From NCBI GenBank assembly GCA_026984515.1, contig JALSRZ010000155.1:1-38179 (forward strand): DNA of 38,179 bases, written 5' to 3'. The translations under genes were made by a program, and so were the position numbers. Source of the stretch: Thiohalobacter sp. Lineage in GTDB: Bacteria; Pseudomonadota; Gammaproteobacteria; DSM-19610. Position 1 is the stretch's first letter, and every line of letters starts with the position of its first letter. Below, piece by piece: positions 24,035-37,783 of this stretch. Below the pieces are notes generated by a model. That model made no database searches. It saw only the letters and a program-made list of their open reading frames with translations, and was not told where the DNA came from.

Positions 24035-25603
24035 TCAGTCAGGCACGTATTCGTCGAGTATACGGCTGACTTCCCCGGCAAATTCAGAAAGGCTTTTTTC
24101 GGCGTCACCTACATCATCATCCGGGCCTATAAAAGTAGTCAGCCTGACCAGCGCGCCATCCGAGCGATGTTTTCGCAAGGCATCCCAGAACAGGTACCAC
24201 TTGACCATATACTCGTTGGTAATCACCCGGCCCCTGCCCTGGAACCAGTAGTACACCAGCTGGGTATAGTCGCCCTTTCTGATAAGGACGCGGTTGACCC
24301 TGAGGTGTTTGCCATTCGACATGGTGGCATCAAGCCGCTTCTGGTCGAACTCGACCATCTTCCACCCGCCGCCCGGAAGACAGGAACGTGGCGAATGCGC
24401 AGACTCACCCTTGCTTTGCGAACCATAGTAGGCAACATAGAAGTTTACGGATCTCCCGCCGGGTTTGAAATAATCCGCAATAATGTAGTCATCGAATTTC
24501 AGTGTATCGATATAGATCGACTCAAGCCTGTCCCGCTTCCCGGTCCACTCACCAAGCTTGAGCGGAAATCCCAGAAAGTCTGCTCTTTCCGGGATGATCT
24601 CTTTGCGCCCTTCCAGCGTTGCAGACCCAAGCATCGCCAGGATGGCCACCACCACGGAAGCGTACAGTGTCACAGGCGTTTTCCTGGGCCGCTTTTGCAC
24701 GCCTTCCGGCACCGGCTCAGGAAATTCGATAGCAAAAGCCTCACTCAGTGGTTTCCGGTCACGTCCGATGAAGGACAATACCCACATCTCCAGCAACAGC
24801 ACGCCCAGGCAGGCCATGAATACCACCCAGCCCTCGAAATCGTGCAGGAAGCCTTCTGCCATCTCCTGACCCCAGTATTCGACCAGCACACCGATCGCAC
24901 CGATGCGGAAACTGTTCATGAAGACCGTGATCGGGATCGTGGAGAAGAAAACCAGCATCTTTTTCCAGAATGACGCCTCGTAAATGTAGGCCATGATAAA
25001 GCCGAGTGTCATCAGCGGGAAAAGGTAGCGCAACCCGCTACAGGCCTCTACAACCTGTAGCTTGTAAACACCGAGATCAATGACATTGCCTTCCAGGTAT
25101 ACTGAAATCCCGAACAGCCGGATCACCCATACCCCGATCTCCGAAGAAATCAGCTGTAACTGCGCAGACAGATTGTTGTAGAGAAATCCCGGCAGCGGGA
25201 TCGCGAATGCCAGCAACAAAAGAGGCACCCATATAACCCGCAGGCCTTTCCAGCCCAGCCAGGCCAGGACCAGCCCATACAGCGACACGATGAATGCATA
25301 CTGAATAACAATAAAGAGCGCACTCAACTCCCCGAGAATAAACAACGCAACACCAAGCAACAGGACCAGCAGCCCGGCCCACGAACCCTTGAAGGGAGTC
25401 TGTTCCAGCTCGTTCTTTTTCTGCCAGACGAGAAACAGGACAATCGGGGGAATCAGGAAACCGTGACTGTATTCTTCGTGGCTGCTCCAGGCCCGGACCA
25501 GATCCGCCAGACCGTCGTAGCTGATCAGGCCGATAAACAGGGCCGCAAGCGCAAAAAGCGCCCAGGCCACCGGTGTTGCATGGAAAATTCTTGTCTCGTT
25601 CAT
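24035..25603 (-). CDS. xrtA: Exosortase A fused to EpsI domain
   Basis: Exosortase A is the membrane transpeptidase-like enzyme thought to cleave proteins at a C-terminal PEP-CTERM signal and pass them to the surface, in step with exopolysaccharide export. In this 522-residue protein the N-terminal part (about 1-280) has eight or so membrane helices and the family's catalytic residues: C188 in VEACSGLRYL, R233 in NSFRIG and H254 in FLHDFEGW. From about 300 the sequence is EpsI (one membrane helix, then a periplasmic domain with ERADFLGFPLKLGEW and the conserved AHSPRSCLPGGGW). EpsI is a separate gene in some genomes and fused in others. It precedes the WecA-like gene with two bases between stop and start and is followed upstream by a WbuB-like enzyme. 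Confidence 0.96.
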   Translation of the reverse strand: MNETRIFHATPVAWALFALAALFIGLISYDGLADLVRAWSSHEEYSHGFLIPPIVLFLVWQKKNELEQTPFKGSWAGLLVLLLGVALFILGELSALFIVIQYAFIVSLYGLVLAWLGWKGLRVIWVPLLLLAFAIPLPGFLYNNLSAQLQLISSEIGVWVIRLFGISVYLEGNVIDLGVYKLQVVEACSGLRYLFPLMTLGFIMAYIYEASFWKKMLVFFSTIPITVFMNSFRIGAIGVLVEYWGQEMAEGFLHDFEGWVVFMACLGVLLLEMWVLSFIGRDRKPLSEAFAIEFPEPVPEGVQKRPRKTPVTLYASVVVAILAMLGSATLEGRKEIIPERADFLGFPLKLGEWTGKRDRLESIYIDTLKFDDYIIADYFKPGGRSVNFYVAYYGSQSKGESAHSPRSCLPGGGWKMVEFDQKRLDATMSNGKHLRVNRVLIRKGDYTQLVYYWFQGRGRVITNEYMVKWYLFWDALRKHRSDGALVRLTTFIGPDDDVGDAEKSLSEFAGEVSRILDEYVPD

Positions 25604-26889: not shown

Positions 26890-27720
26890 CTAGAAGGGCA
26901 AGCCGGTTTTCCTGCGCTTCAGCTCTTTTGTTTTGCACACGATCATATACTCATAAATCGTCTTCAGCATGCTCAACATGAATCCTGCCCGCCCTTCGAG
27001 CAGTCCACCGCGCAGAAAATAAAACACGATGAAAACAAGCAGCGGTCTTCCCGGCAATGAGTACACCAGTGCCTTCTGCATTTTGCGCCGCTGCACCGGA
27101 TCCCTGCTGAACAGGTCGTGCCACCGGTGCTCCCCCGGCGGCGCCTGCAATTTCAGCTCGGCCTCCATGGTCGAGTAACGATTGTGTTTCTCGAACCACG
27201 CGTGCAGCCCCTTGTTGAAAGGGTAGTGGTACAGGTGATGCTCCAGTGAACCAACCTTGCCGTCCGTGCAATACTCCTCGTTAATACTGCGCTCGACCCG
27301 AACCTGCCCTTTCCGGATCAGACGCCCGAACCAGGTCGGGTAACCGCTGCTGTGTTTCAGCCACTTGCCCATCAGGAAATCCTTGCGGCGCATCCGGAAC
27401 ATGCTCACCTCATCCGGGCATGAGTCAACGACTGCCCTGATTTCATCGGCCAGTTCGACAGGCACCACCTCATCCGCATCAACCATCAGTATCCAGGGAT
27501 ACTTATACTCAATGTCTTTGAGTCCGTAGTTCCGCTGTGCGGCATAATTGTCAAACGCACGGTACTCCACCCTGACACCCGCCTGTTGCGCCAGCTCCCG
27601 GGTGCGATCACTGCTGCCGGAATCCAGTACCACTACATCATCTGTCCACCCCAGAGAATCCAGGCAACGAGGCAGATTGGCTTCCTCGTCCAGCGTGAGA
27701 ATCAGAACGGATATACTCAT
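26890..27720 (-). CDS. Glycosyltransferase family 2, WaaE/KdtX-like
   Basis: This is a 276-residue GT-A enzyme. The nucleotide-binding part begins VLILTLDEEANLPRCLDSL, with VVLDSGSSDRT. The metal-binding motif is DADE in MVDADEVVP (about 75-80). The acceptor side has LIRKGQVRVE and HHLYHYPF. The C-terminus has a hydrophobic segment through LLVFIVFYFLRGG and a basic tail (KTKELKRRKTG), as in WaaE-type beta-1,4-glucosyl transferases of the LPS core. It probably works at the membrane face. Its ATG overlaps the kinase-like gene's TGA (27717-27720), so they are co-translated. Confidence 0.93.
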   Translation of the reverse strand: MSISVLILTLDEEANLPRCLDSLGWTDDVVVLDSGSSDRTRELAQQAGVRVEYRAFDNYAAQRNYGLKDIEYKYPWILMVDADEVVPVELADEIRAVVDSCPDEVSMFRMRRKDFLMGKWLKHSSGYPTWFGRLIRKGQVRVERSINEEYCTDGKVGSLEHHLYHYPFNKGLHAWFEKHNRYSTMEAELKLQAPPGEHRWHDLFSRDPVQRRKMQKALVYSLPGRPLLVFIVFYFLRGGLLEGRAGFMLSMLKTIYEYMIVCKTKELKRRKTGLPF

Positions 27721-28382
27721 CGCTCCCCTCCGGGTCTGGTCTTCTCCACCACCTGTTTAACGGCCTCTTCGATGGTTGAGTTGTTTTCAACCGTTTCTAC
27801 CCAGGAACGAGCGGCATACTCCCGGTATAAATCCCAGCGCCGCTGAAAGTTACCATCATGCACATTTTCCGGCCGACACTGAAGAACCGCCTGCTGATCC
27901 CGCATGATGAGGAAGCACTGGGCATGCGCCGGCATCAAACCACGAAACAGCCTTTCCAGTCGTCCGCCGGCCATAAACCGGATCCGGGTATCGACTTCCA
28001 GATCGATCATGATATCCAGCACATAACGGTCGCACACCAGCGCTTGTGAACCCAGGGCGGAAGGCAGGTAAACCAGCAGGATACTCACCAGCAGGGTATC
28101 CAGGTAGGTAAAAATGATGAACAGCCAGGACACAACACGGGATTTGTAGAAATCGTGGTACCCCACCCGCACACCGTCGGGGTATTCATAGCGGGTCAGT
28201 CCGGCCAGCCGGCAGAATGCCAGCAGTAACTTTGTCAGATAGTGATTGTAGCGGAGCCACACGTACCGGGTCGGCAGGCCAGCGGCCTCGAGTCCGCACC
28301 TGACCCCCTCGATGATAGATGTTTTTCCACAGCCGTCTATTCCGCTGACACAAATCACCGGATGCCGGCGCTGCCTGCTCAC
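27717..28382 (-). CDS. Thymidylate-kinase-like P-loop protein
   Basis: This 221-residue protein resembles the TMP kinase fold. Walker A is GIDGCGKTS at 14-22. The family's DRY motif is at CDRYVLD, and a LID-like RPENVHDGNFQRRWDLY region follows. Between them lies an unusually hydrophobic stretch (VSWLFIIFTYLDTLLVSILLVYL) not expected in a soluble nucleotide kinase. The start is GTG at 28380-28382, overlapping the TGA of the preceding glycosyltransferase (GTGA), with GGAG about 8 bases upstream; a much longer open frame to 28856 reads out of phase through that gene. Sitting between two glycosyltransferase genes suggests a sugar or lipid kinase role, but the substrate is unknown. A general tmk is usually found elsewhere, near holB. 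Confidence 0.8.
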   Translation of the reverse strand: MSRQRRHPVICVSGIDGCGKTSIIEGVRCGLEAAGLPTRYVWLRYNHYLTKLLLAFCRLAGLTRYEYPDGVRVGYHDFYKSRVVSWLFIIFTYLDTLLVSILLVYLPSALGSQALVCDRYVLDIMIDLEVDTRIRFMAGGRLERLFRGLMPAHAQCFLIMRDQQAVLQCRPENVHDGNFQRRWDLYREYAARSWVETVENNSTIEEAVKQVVEKTRPGGER

Positions 28383-29581
28383 TGCACTTCTCCGCGAACG
28401 GCTGCAATCCCGGCAGATATACAATCCAGCCATTGGTCCACCATTTCGTCCCAGTCCGGATGATGCCGGTAACAGGACAGCGTCGCCGCACACCGGTCTG
28501 CATAAAATGTGCTGTCCGACAACAGGCGCTGCATGGAAGCAGCCAGCCCGTCCACGTCCCCCAGCGCCACGGCCATACCGGACTGGCTTACGTAGTCGCC
28601 AGTGCCACCGGTCAGCGTTGTGATGACCGGTTTCCCATAACGCATGGATTCTATTATGGCCAGCGGAATCTCGGAGGGGACGGTTACAAACGGAAGCACA
28701 ACGCTGTGGCAGGCCGCAATATAGGCATCCAGCAGCACCCGTTCCACGGACTCCCACACGGTATATACCCTTGCGCGGTATTTCATGCCTTCGATCAGAC
28801 GCCGAAGTCGCGCCGATTCCAGTGGTGCGTCCGAACGGAACAGGCACAGCAGACAAACATCCCTGTTTTCCTCCGCAAGCCGCTCAAAGGCACCGAGTAA
28901 TTCGTAAATCCCACGAATGCCACTGGGCGGCCCGGCAAACAGGTAGTATGGACGCTCACCGCGCCAGGCAATAAAGTCATCGGGCAATGGTTTCATTTCC
29001 ATATCGATTTCGCCACTCTCCCGCCCTGGAGGGATCGCCCGCACCTCATCACCACTCCAGCCCCCTGCACGGGCCGCGGCTGCCGTAAGCTCAGTCATTG
29101 CGATCAGCCGGACAAAATCCCGTTGCCTCCAGCGGGACAATTGCCGGCTTTTTGCGCTCAAGGCCTCCACGATATAGGGCAGCGCACCCCGAAGACCAAT
29201 ACGTTTGGCCGCATAAAGCGTATCGACCAGTCGATAGACACCCCCGGGGAAATAGCCGACCAGCGGTACGCCCAAACGGGAGATCGCCCGGACACGCCAG
29301 CCGGGTTCCCGCCAGACCAACGGCCAAACCAGTGCATCGCAGGGCCAATCCTCCAGCACCGCCTCCATTTCCTGTTGCAGAACCTCCCTGCCTTTTGGTA
29401 TGGACAAGGTACCGGCAGGAATTCCCTGCCCCCCCAGTTCGGCCCTTTGACTTCCCAGGGACAGGAGCCTGGACTCACAACCCCGGTTCCGCGCACGGCC
29501 CACCACTTCACACACAGTGCGCCACGGCATCAGGTGCGCATTGCACTCCGTCAAGTCATGCGTTACCACAAGAATCCGCAT
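28379..29581 (-). CDS. Glycosyltransferase family 4
   Basis: This is a 400-residue GT-B protein. The N-terminus is MRILVVTHDLTECNAHLMPW, followed by LGVPLVGYFPGGVYRLVD and RLIAMTELTAAA. The C-terminal half has FAGPPSGIRGIYELLGAFERL, CLLCLFRSDAPL and the GT4 motif in LPFVTVPSEIPLAIIESMRYGKPVITT (E-x7-E-like, with E in PSEIPLAIIES). Its start is ATG at 29579-29581, with AGGAAG and AGGTG upstream. It is followed by the kinase-like gene in a GTGA overlap and preceded by another GT4 gene 28 bases away. It lengthens the glycan; the sugar is unknown. Confidence 0.88.
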   Translation of the reverse strand: MRILVVTHDLTECNAHLMPWRTVCEVVGRARNRGCESRLLSLGSQRAELGGQGIPAGTLSIPKGREVLQQEMEAVLEDWPCDALVWPLVWREPGWRVRAISRLGVPLVGYFPGGVYRLVDTLYAAKRIGLRGALPYIVEALSAKSRQLSRWRQRDFVRLIAMTELTAAAARAGGWSGDEVRAIPPGRESGEIDMEMKPLPDDFIAWRGERPYYLFAGPPSGIRGIYELLGAFERLAEENRDVCLLCLFRSDAPLESARLRRLIEGMKYRARVYTVWESVERVLLDAYIAACHSVVLPFVTVPSEIPLAIIESMRYGKPVITTLTGGTGDYVSQSGMAVALGDVDGLAASMQRLLSDSTFYADRCAATLSCYRHHPDWDEMVDQWLDCISAGIAAVRGEVQ

Positions 29582-30961: not shown

Positions 30962-31121
30962 CCTTTCTGTACAGGCTCCTGATTCTGGCACCAACCGCCT
31001 GTAAATAAAACTGTTTTTGATGCAATCCCCTACCCGGGCTCCAGCCACACTGCAGCCCGGCAATGTACAGGCAGGCAGCGCACCAGTCGTCCCGCAGCGA
31101 GCAGAATACGACAGTCAGGCA

Positions 31122-31814
31122 ATGGCCCGGAAAAAGAAAATAAAATCGTCGCACGACGGAAAGTTCCATTTTACCAATTTCCTGAGGAACTGGCTGCATC
31201 AGGCTATTACTTACATGGATAAAGGTGAGCGGACCATACGTCTGCTCATGGAAAGCGGTGAAGTCCTGATCCTGTGGCTTATCCTGGTAAACACGACCGC
31301 ATCCTCCAGCTCCGGACAGTACGCAATACTGCTGTTTGCTATCGTGCTGGTGCACACCCTGAACTGGCTACTCAATGGTAATTTCTGGGCTTTATATCTG
31401 TTCGCAGTTCCGTCAGCCAGAAACCCGGGGGAAGTAGAAACCGTACGCTACCTCAACGAAATGGCAACCCGGCTCAGCCGCTATGATTCCATTACCGGCC
31501 TGGCTATTTTCGGCAGTGTCACGCGCGGCAAATGGCACAACTGCAGCGATATCGACATCCGGATCATCAGGAAGCCCGGGGTGACCAACCTTATTTCAGC
31601 TTCACTTGTATCTATCAGGGAACGCGCTCGCGCCTTCTTCAAAAGACAACCCCTGGACCTGTTTCTTGCAGATGACATCAGCTTCCTGCGCAAAATGCGC
31701 AGCGATGAAACACCGGTATTTCTGATTAAACGGGATTCACGACTGGAGAGGGAATACCCGGACAACCCGGCTATCGCCCTGGAAAGACTTGCAGCACACC
31801 CTCCGGAAAACTAG
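31122..31814 (+). CDS. Membrane-anchored nucleotidyltransferase-domain protein
   Basis: The protein has a basic N-terminus, two adjacent membrane helices (ILWLILVNTTASSSS to about LLFAIVLVHTLNWLL), the motif LNGNFWALYLFA, then a MNT-type nucleotidyltransferase core. The core has IFGSVTRGKWHNCSDIDIRI, with the GS and two catalytic-type Asp, and PLDLFLADD, with a third acidic site. Family members move NMP groups to proteins, RNA or sugars, and this one's target is unknown. It is the only plus-strand gene in the polysaccharide block. ATG at 31122 (230 residues) is preferred because the frame upstream is low in recognisable content; ATG at 31017 would add 35 residues, and neither has a good ribosome site. 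Its TAG stop is the first triplet of a dispersed repeat. Confidence 0.78.
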   Translation: MARKKKIKSSHDGKFHFTNFLRNWLHQAITYMDKGERTIRLLMESGEVLILWLILVNTTASSSSGQYAILLFAIVLVHTLNWLLNGNFWALYLFAVPSARNPGEVETVRYLNEMATRLSRYDSITGLAIFGSVTRGKWHNCSDIDIRIIRKPGVTNLISASLVSIRERARAFFKRQPLDLFLADDISFLRKMRSDETPVFLIKRDSRLEREYPDNPAIALERLAAHPPEN

Positions 31815-31860: not shown

Positions 31861-33129
31861 TTATCGCCTGGCATACAACACTCTAGCCGGCTTTTCTTCC
31901 TTGTGCTCCCGCTTGTTTTCGTCCACATCATCGTTCTCACCTGGCTCAAGCAGCGACAAATTGGCAATCAGGCCCATCAGGAAAAACATATGCAGGATAC
32001 GAGCACCTGTCACGTCATTAGTAATAGCGATCAAAATCAGCATGGTATAGGAACACCACAATATTTTGCCCAATGACGTGACGAGCTCAGTATCGTTCGG
32101 GATCGAATTCAGACACTTGTAGGTTCCCCATATAAGCAGCATAAAGATCACCAGACCGGGTACACCACCAACTATCAAGGAACTGATCAGCACGTTGTGA
32201 ACTGAACCAAGGTGGAAAGCCGTCCCCCCCCTTGTCCCCACGCTATATCCGGCTCCTCCCGTACCCAGCACCGGGTTGTCCATCGCAATTTTAGCCATGC
32301 GCCCCCAGAACGCCAGCCTTCCCGTCAGATCCTTGATATAGAGATCAATGTTATATACCCGCTCAATAGATGTCTGAACCTCCTTTTCATCCTCTATGTA
32401 AACATCCTCAAATGCGACCGAACTTGCCATAATCACCGCAACAAACGCACCTATAAATATCATAAATGCATACGATGCATAGCGTCGTAGCCCCATATTC
32501 ATCCACAACCTGTGAGCAACCGGAGTAAAAATTACAAACGAAATAATTGCCATGCGCGTAAAACTGATAATCAACGCGGCAAATAGAACCGCGCAGGATG
32601 ACATGACAATAACGTATTTCGTTTTACCGCTTACGTGGGTGCGCAAAAACAGCAGTACCCACGTACCAACGGCAAAGATTGCGCTCAGCGTTATGGTGCT
32701 GTACATCACGCCTTCAACCCCTTCGGGACGCACACCATAGGTAATGTAGTAGTGGATAAACATCGCCGCCTGCACCAGCATCCCCGGGGTAAGAAACAGC
32801 AGTCCGTATTTCATCACCTGGGGAGTGATATGTGCTTTTCGCAATACGAAATAGATAATCACCGGAGCCAGCACGTTCCAGCGGTAGTAACGCATAGACA
32901 CATACCAGTCGTCACCACCTGCGCCTACTGACACCAGGTTAAAGACAGCGTAAACGATAATAACCACATCCAGGAAAAGTATACGCTTGACAGCACCGCT
33001 GTTTTCACCGGACATCAGCATGGCAAAGACAACACCGAGCAGGACAATCTCCAGCAGTAAAACGTGACCGCCCACCGTCACCTGTGTGAGCGGCATGACA
33101 GCGAACAAAGCGTAGAGTGACCACTTCAT
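31861..33129 (-). CDS. O-antigen ligase/polymerase-like (Wzy/WaaL) membrane protein
   Basis: The 422-residue protein has about eleven membrane helices and a large periplasmic loop holding RLAFWGRMAKIAMDNP, then LGTGGAGYS and, after it, HNVLISSLIVGGVPGLVIF. This is the pattern of the Wzy_C/O-antigen ligase family, which joins or polymerises lipid-linked repeat units in the periplasm. Exosortase loci often hold such a ligase. The C-terminus is polar and charged (EPGENDDVDENKREHKEE). I use ATG at 33127-33129; a TTG at 33141 would add four residues. It follows a GT4 gene by 15 bases and converges on the nucleotidyltransferase gene. Base composition is visibly poorer in GC than in the dsbD-prsR part. 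Confidence 0.86.
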   Translation of the reverse strand: MKWSLYALFAVMPLTQVTVGGHVLLLEIVLLGVVFAMLMSGENSGAVKRILFLDVVIIVYAVFNLVSVGAGGDDWYVSMRYYRWNVLAPVIIYFVLRKAHITPQVMKYGLLFLTPGMLVQAAMFIHYYITYGVRPEGVEGVMYSTITLSAIFAVGTWVLLFLRTHVSGKTKYVIVMSSCAVLFAALIISFTRMAIISFVIFTPVAHRLWMNMGLRRYASYAFMIFIGAFVAVIMASSVAFEDVYIEDEKEVQTSIERVYNIDLYIKDLTGRLAFWGRMAKIAMDNPVLGTGGAGYSVGTRGGTAFHLGSVHNVLISSLIVGGVPGLVIFMLLIWGTYKCLNSIPNDTELVTSLGKILWCSYTMLILIAITNDVTGARILHMFFLMGLIANLSLLEPGENDDVDENKREHKEEKPARVLYARR

Positions 33130-33144
33130 CAGACGTAACAACCG

Positions 33145-34281
33145 TTATATAGCAAGTTTTTCAATATACCGGACCAGACTTCTCGCCTGCCGTTTCCAGC
33201 TTATTATCTCTTCCAGCATGGGTCTTGCCACCGGCGCGCTACCCTTCTCGATCAGGTTTGCGATTGCAACCGCCAGATTCTCCGGCAAGGAGTCGATGGC
33301 CAGCTCCACTCCGCCGGTCTGGTCTGAAACCCATCGATGCGCGGGAATGTCAGTAGCCACAATGGGTATACCCATCGCCAGGTACTCCATCAATTTGATG
33401 GGGCTGCTCACCCGCCACCAGACAATATCCGGAAACGGAAGAATCGCGACATCGGCCGTTCGCACATACTTCGGCACATCCGCATACGGGACTTTCCCGG
33501 TAAATATCACACGCTCTGATATCGCCATATCAGAAGCAAGCGCTTCCAGCTCCGCTTTGCCCTTGCCGTCTCCCACGATCAGAAACACGAGATCCGGGTA
33601 GCGATCCTTTAACGATGCGACCGCCCGGATCGCATCCTGTAAACCGCGGTTGGGCGAAAGTGTGCCGTGGTAGAGCAACACCCTTTTATTGTCCAGGCCC
33701 AGCTCCAGGCGCATGGATCCACCCTCAGGTTCAAAATGCTCCAGGCACACTCCGGATGTCCATACACCAAGCTCCCCCCTGATATGCTTCAAGTGCGGTC
33801 TTACCGTATCACCCAGCATGGGAGTTATAACAGTCATCCCGTCACAAAACCGGTCTGCAAGACGAATGGCTGCATTGTAACGCCAGACCTCGCGTTTGCT
33901 ACGCCAGCCATGATCAAGATCAACGGGAATAGTTCGTATATCCAGAACATATCTGGGCCTTCTCCCCCTGAACAGGGCAAACAGACGCAGAAACGGCAGC
34001 AAGTGACAAACCTGCGATCCGAACATCACGGCTTCTGCGTCCGTGGCAAGTGCCGCACTGAACATCCTCCAGTGAAAGCGAACCCTTGCCGCCACGGATG
34101 AAGGCGGTGTGTGTACATACTCCACATGGCTGAAACCGTCCAGCGGGATCTTCTCCTTTCGGTAGGCGACCACGGTTTCCATCTCGTGACCCTGTTCGGC
34201 CAGCCCCCTGGCCATCTCGTTCTTGCTGGTAAACTGAAATGCTCCATCCACAGTCAGCGGAATCAACCATACAATTTTCAT
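33145..34281 (-). CDS. Glycosyltransferase family 4
   Basis: This 378-residue GT-B enzyme starts MKIVWLIPLTVDGAFQFTS, with KNEMARGLAEQGHEME. The middle has YVLDIRTIPVDLDHGWRS, then GMTVITPML. The donor half has LYHGTLSPNRGLQDAI, FLIVGDGKGKAELE, VIFTGKVPYADVPKY, ILPFPDIVWWRVSSPIKLMEYLAMGIPIVATD. The E in KLMEYLAMG is the second Glu of the motif. It lies one base after the toroid-like gene's stop and just ahead of the Wzy-like gene, so it belongs to the right-hand operon. The sugar transferred is unknown. Confidence 0.92.
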   Translation of the reverse strand: MKIVWLIPLTVDGAFQFTSKNEMARGLAEQGHEMETVVAYRKEKIPLDGFSHVEYVHTPPSSVAARVRFHWRMFSAALATDAEAVMFGSQVCHLLPFLRLFALFRGRRPRYVLDIRTIPVDLDHGWRSKREVWRYNAAIRLADRFCDGMTVITPMLGDTVRPHLKHIRGELGVWTSGVCLEHFEPEGGSMRLELGLDNKRVLLYHGTLSPNRGLQDAIRAVASLKDRYPDLVFLIVGDGKGKAELEALASDMAISERVIFTGKVPYADVPKYVRTADVAILPFPDIVWWRVSSPIKLMEYLAMGIPIVATDIPAHRWVSDQTGGVELAIDSLPENLAVAIANLIEKGSAPVARPMLEEIISWKRQARSLVRYIEKLAI

Positions 34282-34282
34282 A

Positions 34283-35545
34283 TCACGTCATCGCAGTCGG
34301 AGGAATGAACCAGCCCAGCCCCGGGGCAGAAAGAAATCGCCACTCATTCCGACTTTCAGGAGTATCGATTATCATGGATGCGTAGGCAATCACCAGAAGC
34401 CGGAACCAGGTCGAGAACAAATCGCTTTCCTCTATTGGTATCGGTTTGCTCACCCAGCCCTGCGGGTGGCGCGGTTTTACCGGGTTCAACTGCTGTTCCC
34501 GCAGGAAGCGACGGTTCACGAACACCCACTGATACCAGTCAGGCTGGCGCCAGAACGAAAACAGATTCCGTAGATACATCATGGGACCATAGCGCTTCCT
34601 CACGCCCCAGATAAATCCGCCACCCGGGGCTTCCAGCGCGCAAACCGCATCGTAAACACGGCGCAGGCATTTCCGCACATCGCCCTCCCTGTAACCCGTG
34701 CGCAGATACAGGTTGACCAGCGTGTCTACTGCGTCGATATCCTCGCAGCCACCGCCACCCATCTGCGGAGCAAACATACCGTCGATGTTCTGAAATGAAA
34801 GCGTCTTATCAATAATAGCTTCCTTACAACCAAGATCACGGCCGGCATAAAAATAGAGCAGGTACTGATGGTAGGCACCAAACAGGCCATTATGGTACTC
34901 GGCCAACCGGCCTTCACCCCAGAACCCGGTTTTTTTATTCTGGTAATTGTCGTGCCAGTCAAAAAAGGCCGTAACCGCAGGGTCGGAGTCAAGTGCAATC
35001 CCGCGGTTCTCGGCATCGCAGATCAGGAATATGCCCAGGAACATGGCCAGGTTTCCCGAGCCCCAGGTGCTGTGCCAGTTGAAACTTTCGAGCATCGCGC
35101 ATACGCCAGCAGGGGTGTTCAGTCCCTCATCCCCGAGGAAGCTCAACGGATATTTGAGCTCGCCACCCAGTGCGCGCACCGCACTGATGCAGAAGGTGGA
35201 AAGCTGCCACGTCACGTAACGCGTGTCATGACCGCTGTGCAGGTTGCGGTTCTCAACTTCCGGGTCTACAAACAACCCTGTGGCTTCGTCCTGAAATGAA
35301 AGTATGTAGTTGAGCCACTCCTGTTTCCTGGATGCATCCAGCCGGCTCATTCCCCCCGTCAATTCATACACGAATGCCGCAAAGCACGATGTAAACACAG
35401 TATCGTCACTCGACCGGCTCATCCTGAACCTGCCGAATTTCTCGTCAGGCACCGCCAGGCTCTCAAGCCACTTGCCTGTCCTCTCCAGCAGGTCAGTATT
35501 GTCACTCATTAGTATTGGCTGCTCATTCTCGTCGGCTTCACACAT
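34283..35545 (-). CDS. Unrecognised protein, possible alpha/alpha-toroid (terpene-cyclase-like) fold
   Basis: I do not recognise a named family. The 420-residue protein has no signal peptide or membrane helix. It has four related short motifs: FQDEATGLF (84-92), YQNKKTGFW (201-209), FQNIDGMF (251-258) and LEAPGGGFIWG (304-314), with about 50 residues between the later ones. Each is followed by a His/Asp-rich turn, the clearest being CEDIDAVDTL (267-276). Such spacing recalls the alpha/alpha-toroid of prenyltransferase and terpene-cyclase proteins, or a glycan-active (alpha/alpha)6 barrel. The ATG at 35543-35545 overlaps the flippase gene by eight bases, with GGCGGAAG upstream. Between flippase and glycosyltransferase genes, a glycan- or lipid-linked role is inferred. 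Confidence 0.68.
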   Translation of the reverse strand: MCEADENEQPILMSDNTDLLERTGKWLESLAVPDEKFGRFRMSRSSDDTVFTSCFAAFVYELTGGMSRLDASRKQEWLNYILSFQDEATGLFVDPEVENRNLHSGHDTRYVTWQLSTFCISAVRALGGELKYPLSFLGDEGLNTPAGVCAMLESFNWHSTWGSGNLAMFLGIFLICDAENRGIALDSDPAVTAFFDWHDNYQNKKTGFWGEGRLAEYHNGLFGAYHQYLLYFYAGRDLGCKEAIIDKTLSFQNIDGMFAPQMGGGGCEDIDAVDTLVNLYLRTGYREGDVRKCLRRVYDAVCALEAPGGGFIWGVRKRYGPMMYLRNLFSFWRQPDWYQWVFVNRRFLREQQLNPVKPRHPQGWVSKPIPIEESDLFSTWFRLLVIAYASMIIDTPESRNEWRFLSAPGLGWFIPPTAMT

Positions 35546-37049
35546 TAAATATCTTCCGCCTGAAAAATGTATTCACCAGGCTTTTTTCGCGCACTTCCAT
35601 GAAATTATTTACCAGGGTGGCACCAACATACGTTCCACCCCCTGCCAGCAGGGCTGTCACCAGGTAAGCCGGTGAATCACCTGCACCCAGAATGGTATAG
35701 GTCACCGCGCCGGCCAGCACAGCGTTGATCGCAATACGCATCAGTGCGCCCCATGGGATGGATATACCTGTATAGTGCTTCGCCATGTAATAAAAAAACA
35801 GGCATTTAAACATGAGTGCGCTGCCTGTTGCGAAGGCTACGCCCATGATGCCGATGTGGTTCATCAGTATAATCGCGGCCACCACATTATATACAGCAAA
35901 AACCTGGGCATACAGGCGGACCTCTACCTTCTCGATAGCCTGAAGCACCAGGTCGCTGGTCAGTTCCAGGACTGTAAATACGTTAAACAGCAGTAACATG
36001 ATGAAAATTCTGTCGGCAGCCGCATATTTCTCACCGAATACTGCGCCGATCAGCGGCGCTGCAGACAGGCTTACAATAACGAGCGCGGGCACCAGGATCA
36101 TGGCAATCAGATTGACCAATGTACGAAACAGCCTGTTTAATTCTTCTTTTCTGTCCGCGACCGCATAATAACGCTGGTAAAATGCCGGTCTGATTATGCT
36201 TTGCAACAGATTCTGTGGCATAACGGATACCAGCATTTTCGACGCCCTGGAGGCTAGCGCATAAATACCCAGGTCATAGGGATTGGCCATTGCTGCGATG
36301 ACAAAGTAATCCATCGAATTGCTGTACAGAATTCCACCCGGCTGAACCAGCGCATTAAACCCGGAATAGCGGGCCAGTCGCCGGGTTTCAAAGGTGGCTG
36401 CCTCATTTTTCCGGCAAGCTATCCGCCTCGGCAGTATACGCGTGACAAACACGTACCCCAGCAACCCGAGGCCGGCAGCATAGCTCAATGCCTCTGCGGC
36501 CAGAACCCCGGTCAGGCCAAGACCAGCCTCGAGCACTAAGAACACCAGCACATACTTCAGCACTGTATAGAAAACCTGCACAATCGAAACTGCCTTGTGC
36601 ATGAACAACGCATTGAACTCAATCTGGAAATATTCTACCTGGAATAAGATAAACGCCCCCAGCGCAAAAACCATAAACTCCTCGCGCCTGTCAGCGATAT
36701 TGAAGAACCCCGCCCACTGCTGAAACAGCACAAGCGCAACAAGAAGGCTTAGCAGGGAAAGAGCAATCCTGATTGCATGGGAAATAACGATCGTTTTAAC
36801 GATGCGTGCAAACTGTTTCAGCTCCGCATACTCCGGAAGAAACCGCTGCAGCGATGAACCCAGACCAAAATTACTAAGGTAGCTGAACACCAGCACGCCA
36901 CCTACAATAAAATTATAGACCCCGTAATCATCAACCGTCAGGCCACGCGCCAGAAGTACTACATAAAGGAGGCCCAGCACTTTCGTCAACATTTGTGCCG
37001 GCAGAACGAACAAGGTGCTCGTTCTTGTTTTATCCAGTAAACTAGCCAA
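35538..37049 (-). CDS. Wzx-like oligosaccharide flippase
   Basis: This 503-residue integral membrane protein of the MOP/polysaccharide transporter group should flip undecaprenyl-linked repeat units across the inner membrane. It opens with LFVLPAQMLTKVLGLLYVVLLARGLTVDDYGVYNF, a typical Wzx start. About 12-14 helices follow, with SYLSNFGLGSSLQRFLPEY near the second helix and PLIGAVFGEKY in the second half. The only start is TTG at 37047-37049: a TGA lies in frame two codons upstream. Its 3' end overlaps the toroid-like gene by eight bases. Confidence 0.92.
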   Translation of the reverse strand: MASLLDKTRTSTLFVLPAQMLTKVLGLLYVVLLARGLTVDDYGVYNFIVGGVLVFSYLSNFGLGSSLQRFLPEYAELKQFARIVKTIVISHAIRIALSLLSLLVALVLFQQWAGFFNIADRREEFMVFALGAFILFQVEYFQIEFNALFMHKAVSIVQVFYTVLKYVLVFLVLEAGLGLTGVLAAEALSYAAGLGLLGYVFVTRILPRRIACRKNEAATFETRRLARYSGFNALVQPGGILYSNSMDYFVIAAMANPYDLGIYALASRASKMLVSVMPQNLLQSIIRPAFYQRYYAVADRKEELNRLFRTLVNLIAMILVPALVIVSLSAAPLIGAVFGEKYAAADRIFIMLLLFNVFTVLELTSDLVLQAIEKVEVRLYAQVFAVYNVVAAIILMNHIGIMGVAFATGSALMFKCLFFYYMAKHYTGISIPWGALMRIAINAVLAGAVTYTILGAGDSPAYLVTALLAGGGTYVGATLVNNFMEVREKSLVNTFFRRKIFNV

Positions 37050-37132: not shown

Positions 37133-37783
37133 TCACGAACCAGCACGGGGCATGGAACGATCCAGGAATTCATCCACTGACAGATTCCTGTCGTAGAACA
37201 AAGGCACATTTTTCAGCACCCTTTCCGTTTCCCAATCCCACCAACGCGCCGCAAGCAACTTGGTTATATCTTCATCCGAGAAACGCATCTTCCTCACGGT
37301 AGCAGGCGCACCGGCTACAACCGAGTAGGGTGGGACATCCCTGGTAACCACAGAGCCTGCCCCAACTACAGCACCATCACCTATATTGACTCCTGACAGG
37401 ACTATTACATTCACACCTATCCATACATCACTGCCGATCGTGATATCACCCCGACTGGTCCCGTGATTCAACCCGGGATGATCTTCTTTCGGAAAAAAGT
37501 TTGAAAGCGGGTAGTTTGCAATGTAGCTGTTGTGGAGCGCACCTATAGCCTGAAGTCCAGAGGCAATCGAGGTATACTTCCCAATTGTAACCTTGGTATC
37601 GGGCAAGCTTGATATTCTACCAGGCCCTCCAATATACGTATGCTCGCCTATTGTCAGGTGGCCTGCATTTATCTCCAGTTCGGGATGGAGTTTTGCTGAC
37701 CTGGCGACATTGAAAGATGTGGTTTTTCGGTGCGCCCCCCCTCTGAACACCCCAATAATTTTCTTCACTACTTTCTTAATCAT
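37133..37783 (-). CDS. Hexapeptide-repeat acetyltransferase (CatB/XAT-like)
   Basis: The 216-residue protein is a left-handed beta-helix acyltransferase that would acetylate a sugar of the glycan with acetyl-CoA. Hexapeptide repeats are clear over about 108-165: ITIGSDVWIGVNVIVLSGVNIG then DGAVVGAGSVVTRDVPPY. The acetyl-CoA end signature VVAGAPATVRKMRF follows, then the helical tail. The His at ALHNSY is a candidate for the catalytic base. It lies between the flippase gene and the glycosyltransferase gene at the right edge. Confidence 0.92.
   Translation of the reverse strand: MIKKVVKKIIGVFRGGAHRKTTSFNVARSAKLHPELEINAGHLTIGEHTYIGGPGRISSLPDTKVTIGKYTSIASGLQAIGALHNSYIANYPLSNFFPKEDHPGLNHGTSRGDITIGSDVWIGVNVIVLSGVNIGDGAVVGAGSVVTRDVPPYSVVAGAPATVRKMRFSDEDITKLLAARWWDWETERVLKNVPLFYDRNLSVDEFLDRSMPRAGS

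Follow-up and report, generated by a model that had tools for sequence, protein, structure and literature searches.

An unnamed family of predicted alpha/alpha toroid proteins with a member in an exosortase-type polysaccharide locus of Thiohalobacter sp.

The toroid gene and its locus

The window, a stretch of 38,179 nucleotides from Thiohalobacter sp., carries an exosortase-type polysaccharide locus with an XrtD-type exosortase, PrsK/PrsR/PrsT, GDP-fucose genes, a WecA-type transferase and several glycosyltransferases (GTs). Between its flippase gene and a GT4 gene lies a gene which belongs to no named protein family, raising the question of what its product is and what it could do in a polysaccharide locus. 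We call it the toroid gene after the predicted fold of its product. The genes concerned are as follows.

34283..35545, minus strand: toroid gene, 420 codons (ORF call), with an ortholog of about 70% identity in genome G493
35543-35545, minus strand: start ATG of the toroid gene
35507-35509, minus strand: possible alternative start of the toroid gene, an in-frame ATG at codon 13
35538..37049, minus strand: Wzx flippase gene (Polysacc_synt), upstream partner of the toroid gene
33145..34281, minus strand: GT4 glycosyltransferase gene, directly 3' of the toroid stop
37133..37783, minus strand: hexapeptide acyltransferase gene, two genes upstream of the toroid gene, an order kept in G493
31861..33141, minus strand: Wzy_C O-antigen ligase/polymerase-type gene, where the shared cassette ends

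The ORF at 34283-35545 on the minus strand is a real gene, as an earlier note made from the sequence had proposed. The same note had described an 8-base overlap with the Wzx gene, a GT4 directly after the stop and the peptide CEDIDAVD at residue 267, all of which were confirmed; the overlap arises from the Wzx stop at 35538-35540 and the toroid ATG. In G493 the toroid gene and Wzx do not overlap, and the start of the ortholog falls between the positions of the codon-1 and codon-13 ATGs. The maximum 19-residue hydropathy of the toroid protein is 1.46 and its N-terminus is charged. By hydropathy and inspection of the N-terminus it has neither a signal peptide-like start nor a membrane helix, which makes the cytosol its probable place of action.

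The GC content of the toroid cassette is 0.52, against 0.61 in the first 20 kb of the window, and the toroid gene is present in only 1 of 17 genomes of its own genus. Both values fit acquisition of the cassette as one block.

The matching cassette in G493

The closest relative was found in G493, a genome from another family of the same class, where a toroid copy lies in a matching cassette ordered sulfotransferase, hexapeptide transferase, Wzx, toroid, three extra genes, GT4 and ligase. The extra genes between toroid and GT4 encode a DegT aminotransferase, a GNAT protein and a GT, and the locus also has a UDP-glucose/GDP-mannose dehydrogenase-type gene. Identity between the window and G493 is 53% for the hexapeptide protein, 57% for Wzx, 69% for the toroid, 56% for GT4 and 35% for the ligase. 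Since the toroid has the highest identity while fourfold sites in the cassette are 64-81% different, which is near saturation, it is the most constrained gene of the cassette. This type of Wzx occurs in 2 of 339 class genomes, which are the two with a standalone toroid; the toroid domain itself was detected in 3 of 369 sampled class genomes, the third being a fusion.

Searches for known families

Searches with the toroid protein gave no significant match in Pfam, NCBIfam or PDB sequences. For the toroid domain of the relatives there was no Pfam match beyond subthreshold PF00432 traces in two family members (E 0.03), and family sequence profiles found nothing significant in PDB, where a Rab geranylgeranyltransferase beta trace stayed below threshold (E 2.1). 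Peptide patterns for close homologs had no hit in a genome contig collection, the phage collection held no toroid relatives, and the viral structure library gave no clear toroid family and no match with E under 0.09. Literature searches turned up nothing relevant on the domain, on toroids in exopolysaccharide loci or on hexapeptide-toroid fusions. The view of the earlier note that the family is an unknown one thus stands: Pfam, NCBIfam and PDB offered no family of settled function, and the predicted fold is still a toroid.

A conserved-peptide scan of the genome contig collection revealed about 500 relatives. Sequence comparison therewith supports a broad, widespread and unnamed family, to which the toroid belongs, without a Pfam or NCBIfam entry.

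Branches of the family

To one side of the window and G493 proteins stand three further groups, namely a branch of about 375 aa, a branch fused to an acyltransferase, and two copies from Microvirga. Profile comparison of the query pair gave a probability of 98.3 (E 1.4e-14) with the fused branch and 97.8 (E 7.7e-13) with the ~375-aa branch. The mutual probabilities of these three are 97-98%, and pairings with the two Microvirga copies reach 69-98%, while the same profile test against hopene cyclases, AGE epimerases and GH88 returned 12% or less. That the four groups form one family is well supported at the level of profiles. The window protein is placed in this hexapeptide-linked toroid family by profile similarity together with residues W157, W161, G207 and D271.

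The ~375-aa branch comes from three genera in the phylum of the window (n=19 loci). Of the 19 loci, 17 have a same-strand GT2 downstream of the toroid, and in 11 a GT4 lies between the two; the exceptions are one locus at a contig edge and one with the GT2 on the opposite strand. No hexapeptide match was seen within the stretches searched around these loci, and a uppP-like gene, read by eye, lies near some of them. The Microvirga copies are tandem and standalone, on a plasmid beside a sugar ABC transporter, with no GT annotated nearby.

The fused branch is the largest one. An N-terminal hexapeptide acyltransferase fusion was present in 77 of 80 inspected loci (out of about 500), and among the other three, two lie at contig edges and one is split into overlapping genes. 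The split one is from Buttiauxella sp. A111 (L076 9057-10954), in which a hexapeptide ORF is followed by a toroid ORF with a 4-base overlap. Hosts include Alphaproteobacteria, Paenibacillus, Actinomycetota, a Clostridia MAG and a Verrucomicrobiia MAG, and in the archaeon Haloarcula a relative is annotated as acyltransferase. Such proteins (“acyltransferase” or “DapH/DapD/GlmU-related protein” in Rhizobium, Streptomyces and Haloarcula) have, by profile comparison, the same C-terminal domain as the window toroid; they differ from it in forming one polypeptide with the acyltransferase and, in several cases, in lying in catabolic rather than assembly clusters, and they are uncharacterised. The alignments exclude one relative (L068), which has an internal stop.

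Both the window and G493 have a separate hexapeptide transferase in the cassette. The one in the window (37133-37783) resembles Vat/CatB-type enzymes, whereas the domain in the fusions seems closer to maltose O-acetyltransferase or AntD, so the two arrangements are not one split fusion.

Neighbours of the fused members were counted from 17 loci, as lower bounds with crude ORF calls in GC-rich neighbours. Two GH28 genes are near the Streptomyces member, GH88, DUF2264 and glucuronate isomerase genes are near the Clostridia MAG member, and GH88 and DUF2264 genes are near the Haloarcula member. Heparinase-like genes also occur beside some fused members, while some have no adjoining sugar genes. 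The shared occurrence of GH88 and DUF2264 beside the fusion in a Clostridia MAG (L083 7975-12750) and an archaeon (L163 3604-6723) may mark a conserved uronide-degradation module.

A constant association of homologues with Wzx and a GT4, which the earlier note had raised, did not hold. This Wzx accompanies the toroid in the two closest genomes only; the ~375-aa branch has a GT2, or a GT4 followed by a GT2, and the rest have a fused acyltransferase.

Predicted fold and comparison with known toroids

The AlphaFold model of the query, built on 29 distant relatives, has six inner and six outer helices with a mean pLDDT of 68 and a pTM of 0.71. It is good for the greater part of residues 50-310 and poor beyond 314, and the last 100 residues are unreliable. 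Foldseek matched this model to other helical rings (C4d/C3d in the top rows, GH76 at E 0.037, prenyltransferases), none of them below E 0.01. In VIA-align it reached Z 14.2 with geranylgeranyltransferase-I beta, 12.9 with glucose 2-epimerase and 12.2 with squalene-hopene cyclase, values near the range where a match may mean only a common arrangement of helical proteins. With a pLDDT of 92 the model of a fused relative is far better, and the second domain of that relative aligned to prenyltransferase beta subunits such as RabGGTase beta with Z 19.9 and rmsd 3.7 over 282 residues; for this reason a six-hairpin alpha/alpha toroid is well supported as the predicted fold. The repeat-built toroid suggested in the earlier note is in line with both the structure prediction and the fold search. 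No function follows from the fold.

Protein prenyltransferase beta subunits (PF00432), the best fold match of both models, resemble the toroid in the six-hairpin all-alpha ring and in the Q..(D/E)..G.F turns. They differ in that the toroid has no significant sequence match to them and its relatives include acyltransferase fusions and members of sugar clusters. Such subunits are recognised by D-x-C and a His further on as zinc ligands, and no D-x-C motif exists anywhere in the query. The DXDD motif of class II terpene (squalene-hopene) cyclases is missing too, and four hopene cyclases gave profile probabilities of about 2% or less. The absence of the zinc and DXDD motifs argues against prenyltransferase and cyclase chemistries.

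These matches bear on an explanation in which the toroid grips the undecaprenyl diphosphate of the lipid-linked repeat unit, as a protein prenyltransferase grips a prenyl diphosphate. The Z values, the subthreshold PF00432 and Rab traces, the position with Wzx and GT4 and the uppP-like gene near some ~375-aa loci are consistent with it. However, a common fold proves no function, the catalytic motifs and any profile similarity to hopene cyclases are lacking, and in the largest branch the toroid is fused to an acyltransferase, several members lying by sugar uptake or uronate genes, a setting in which one would not expect a prenyl carrier. We regard this explanation as distinctly unlikely. The earlier note had left glycan, lipid carrier and isoprenoid as targets; the glycan is favoured, and the lipid carrier or isoprenoid is not, because of this fusion and the sugar and uronate catabolic clusters of several members.

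AGE/cellobiose 2-epimerases and GH88/GH105 unsaturated uronyl hydrolases also have an alpha/alpha barrel and sugar substrates, and GH88 genes adjoin some fused members, but the toroid has no sequence or profile similarity to these enzymes. For AGE/GlcNAc 2-epimerase (PF07221) there was no Pfam match and profile comparison gave 0.1-12%; for GH88 (PF07470) there was no Pfam match either, and the one GH88 sequence compared gave a probability under 1%. Complement C3d/C4d thioester domains form a similar helical ring, but a thioester domain (C3d/alpha-2-macroglobulin) was rejected, the CGEQ/CLEQ motif being absent in the query and in 29 fused members.

Conserved motifs and residues

Motifs and candidate functional positions of the toroid, all on the minus strand, are as follows.

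35270..35293: motif 1, Q85-DEATGL-F92, x4 spacing, in the turn after outer helix 1
34919..34942: motif 2, Q202-NKKTGF-W209, x4 spacing, with G207 invariant
34772..34792: motif 3, Q252-NIDGM-F258, exact Q-x3-G-x-F/W form
34613..34633: motif 4, E305-APGGG-F311, exact Q/E-x3-G-x-F/W form
35063..35077: W157-HST-W161, at an inner-helix start, both Trp invariant in all four subgroups
34733..34747: C267-EDI-D271, at an inner-helix start, D271 invariant in all subgroups
34370..34429: E373-I392, sixth inner helix by prediction, modelled with low confidence in the query

The pattern [QE]x3-4 G x [FWY] has 5 matches in the toroid against a mean of 1.0 in 5000 composition shuffles of its sequence (P about 0.003). 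Four Q/E-x-x-x-G-x-F/W motifs had been claimed before; they are present above chance, but only those at 252 and 305 have the exact form, those at 85 and 202 have x4 spacing, and a fifth (EYHNGLF at residue 216) had been missed. Motifs 1 and 2 (at 85 and 202) are kept in the toroid relatives, and Q85 and G90 of motif 1 are conserved across the family. The matching His/Asp turns described alongside them do not repeat, as His occurs only at 103, 106, 158, 198, 218, 226 and 360.

Seven residues are invariant in all four subgroups (A56, L152, W157, W161, G207, G223 and D271), and C267 is kept in all except the Microvirga pair. Conservation at inner-helix starts is weakly above the rest, a level which 36 of 345 circular shifts reach. 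The segment E373-I392 corresponds, by eye from the alignment, to LQGTEMWLS in fused members and EGDIHGTCL in ~375-aa ones. The acid of this last inner helix varies, being D in the query and the ~375-aa branch and Q/E in the fused branch.

Invariance weighs on the idea of a non-catalytic scaffold which keeps the glycosyltransferases, and the acyltransferase, together at the membrane. A near-constant GT neighbour in one branch and an acyltransferase fusion in another would suit a scaffold, but invariant Trp, Gly and Asp across about 20% identity suggest a ligand or active site rather than a surface alone, and the Microvirga tandem copies have a sugar transporter and no annotated GT beside them. 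A scaffold is therefore very unlikely.

D271 is plausibly a functional Asp, judged from its conservation. The possible acidic active site of the earlier note gains that much from the invariance of D271 in CEDIDAVD. This Asp is the starting point for reading the toroid as a glycan enzyme itself, an alpha/alpha-barrel lyase, glycoside hydrolase or epimerase using D271 and the acid of the last inner helix, which would edit the repeat unit in assembly loci and process an acylated or unsaturated uronide in the fused branch. Many alpha/alpha toroids are sugar enzymes, GH76 and AGE/cellobiose 2-epimerase (Z 12.9 and below) are among the matches of the query model, and uronate enzyme genes adjoin some fused members. 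Against this, there is no GH88 or AGE profile link (at most 12%) and no Pfam family, the last acid differs between subgroups, and the toroid looks cytosolic, unlike the editing enzymes of well-known exopolysaccharide loci, which are periplasmic. Such an enzyme is somewhat unlikely.

Putative role

Members are fused to sugar-acylating enzymes or adjoin glycosyltransferases, so the toroid probably handles sugars. While fold and family are well supported, its carbohydrate activity is something we infer. The reading we prefer, held tentatively, is a cytosolic alpha/alpha toroid that binds, and perhaps processes, carbohydrate alongside acyl- and glycosyltransferases. It would act on the exopolysaccharide repeat unit or a sugar precursor at the cytosolic face, before Wzx flips the unit. 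The glycan would sit in a putative pocket lined by W157, W161, N219 and D271, proposed from helix positions and conservation rather than coordinates. Trp residues in general are known for stacking on sugars. Held there, it could be presented so that the hexapeptide acyltransferase and GT4 act on the right unit. That the pocket binds sugar, that the toroid and the acyltransferase cooperate and in which order the steps run are all inferred.

For the whole family, the simplest common role is recognising, and perhaps modifying, a sugar, which may be a uronic acid in view of the partners, the uronide genes and the dehydrogenase-type gene in G493. A bolder form, which we consider rather unlikely, is a widespread new class of carbohydrate-processing toroid enzymes that link the acylation of a uronic-acid sugar to a chemical step on it, serving breakdown in the fused branch and recruited here to lipid-linked polysaccharide assembly.

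The family has roughly 500 loci in one genome collection and covers bacteria and an archaeon, and the way its members are fused and placed indicates a specific task in acylating sugars and assembling glycans. The structure or activity of one member would help in annotating the rest and in explaining an extra part in an exosortase-type polysaccharide locus.

Other genes of the window

Three further genes were observed in the locus. The product of the one at 31017-31814 (plus strand) has 265 aa, a hydrophobic stretch and a nucleotidyltransferase domain of the polymerase-beta type, for which PF18765 and PF01909 barely pass the cut-off. The gene lies on the opposite strand inside the locus and is an unusual part for a polysaccharide locus; in the G493 stretch a 33%-identical counterpart (L052 17419-18000) lies at the edge. 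The gene at 27717-28856 (minus strand), among GT genes, encodes a 379-aa protein with weak P-loop-like traces at 155-198 and otherwise no Pfam or NCBIfam match. The gene at 24035-25603 (minus strand) is an exosortase-EpsI fusion scoring as XrtD (VPLPA-CTERM) with 611 bits at a cut-off of 400; it scores 207.1 against XrtA (cut-off 208), and the PrsK/PrsR/PrsT regulators in the same window are XrtA-type.
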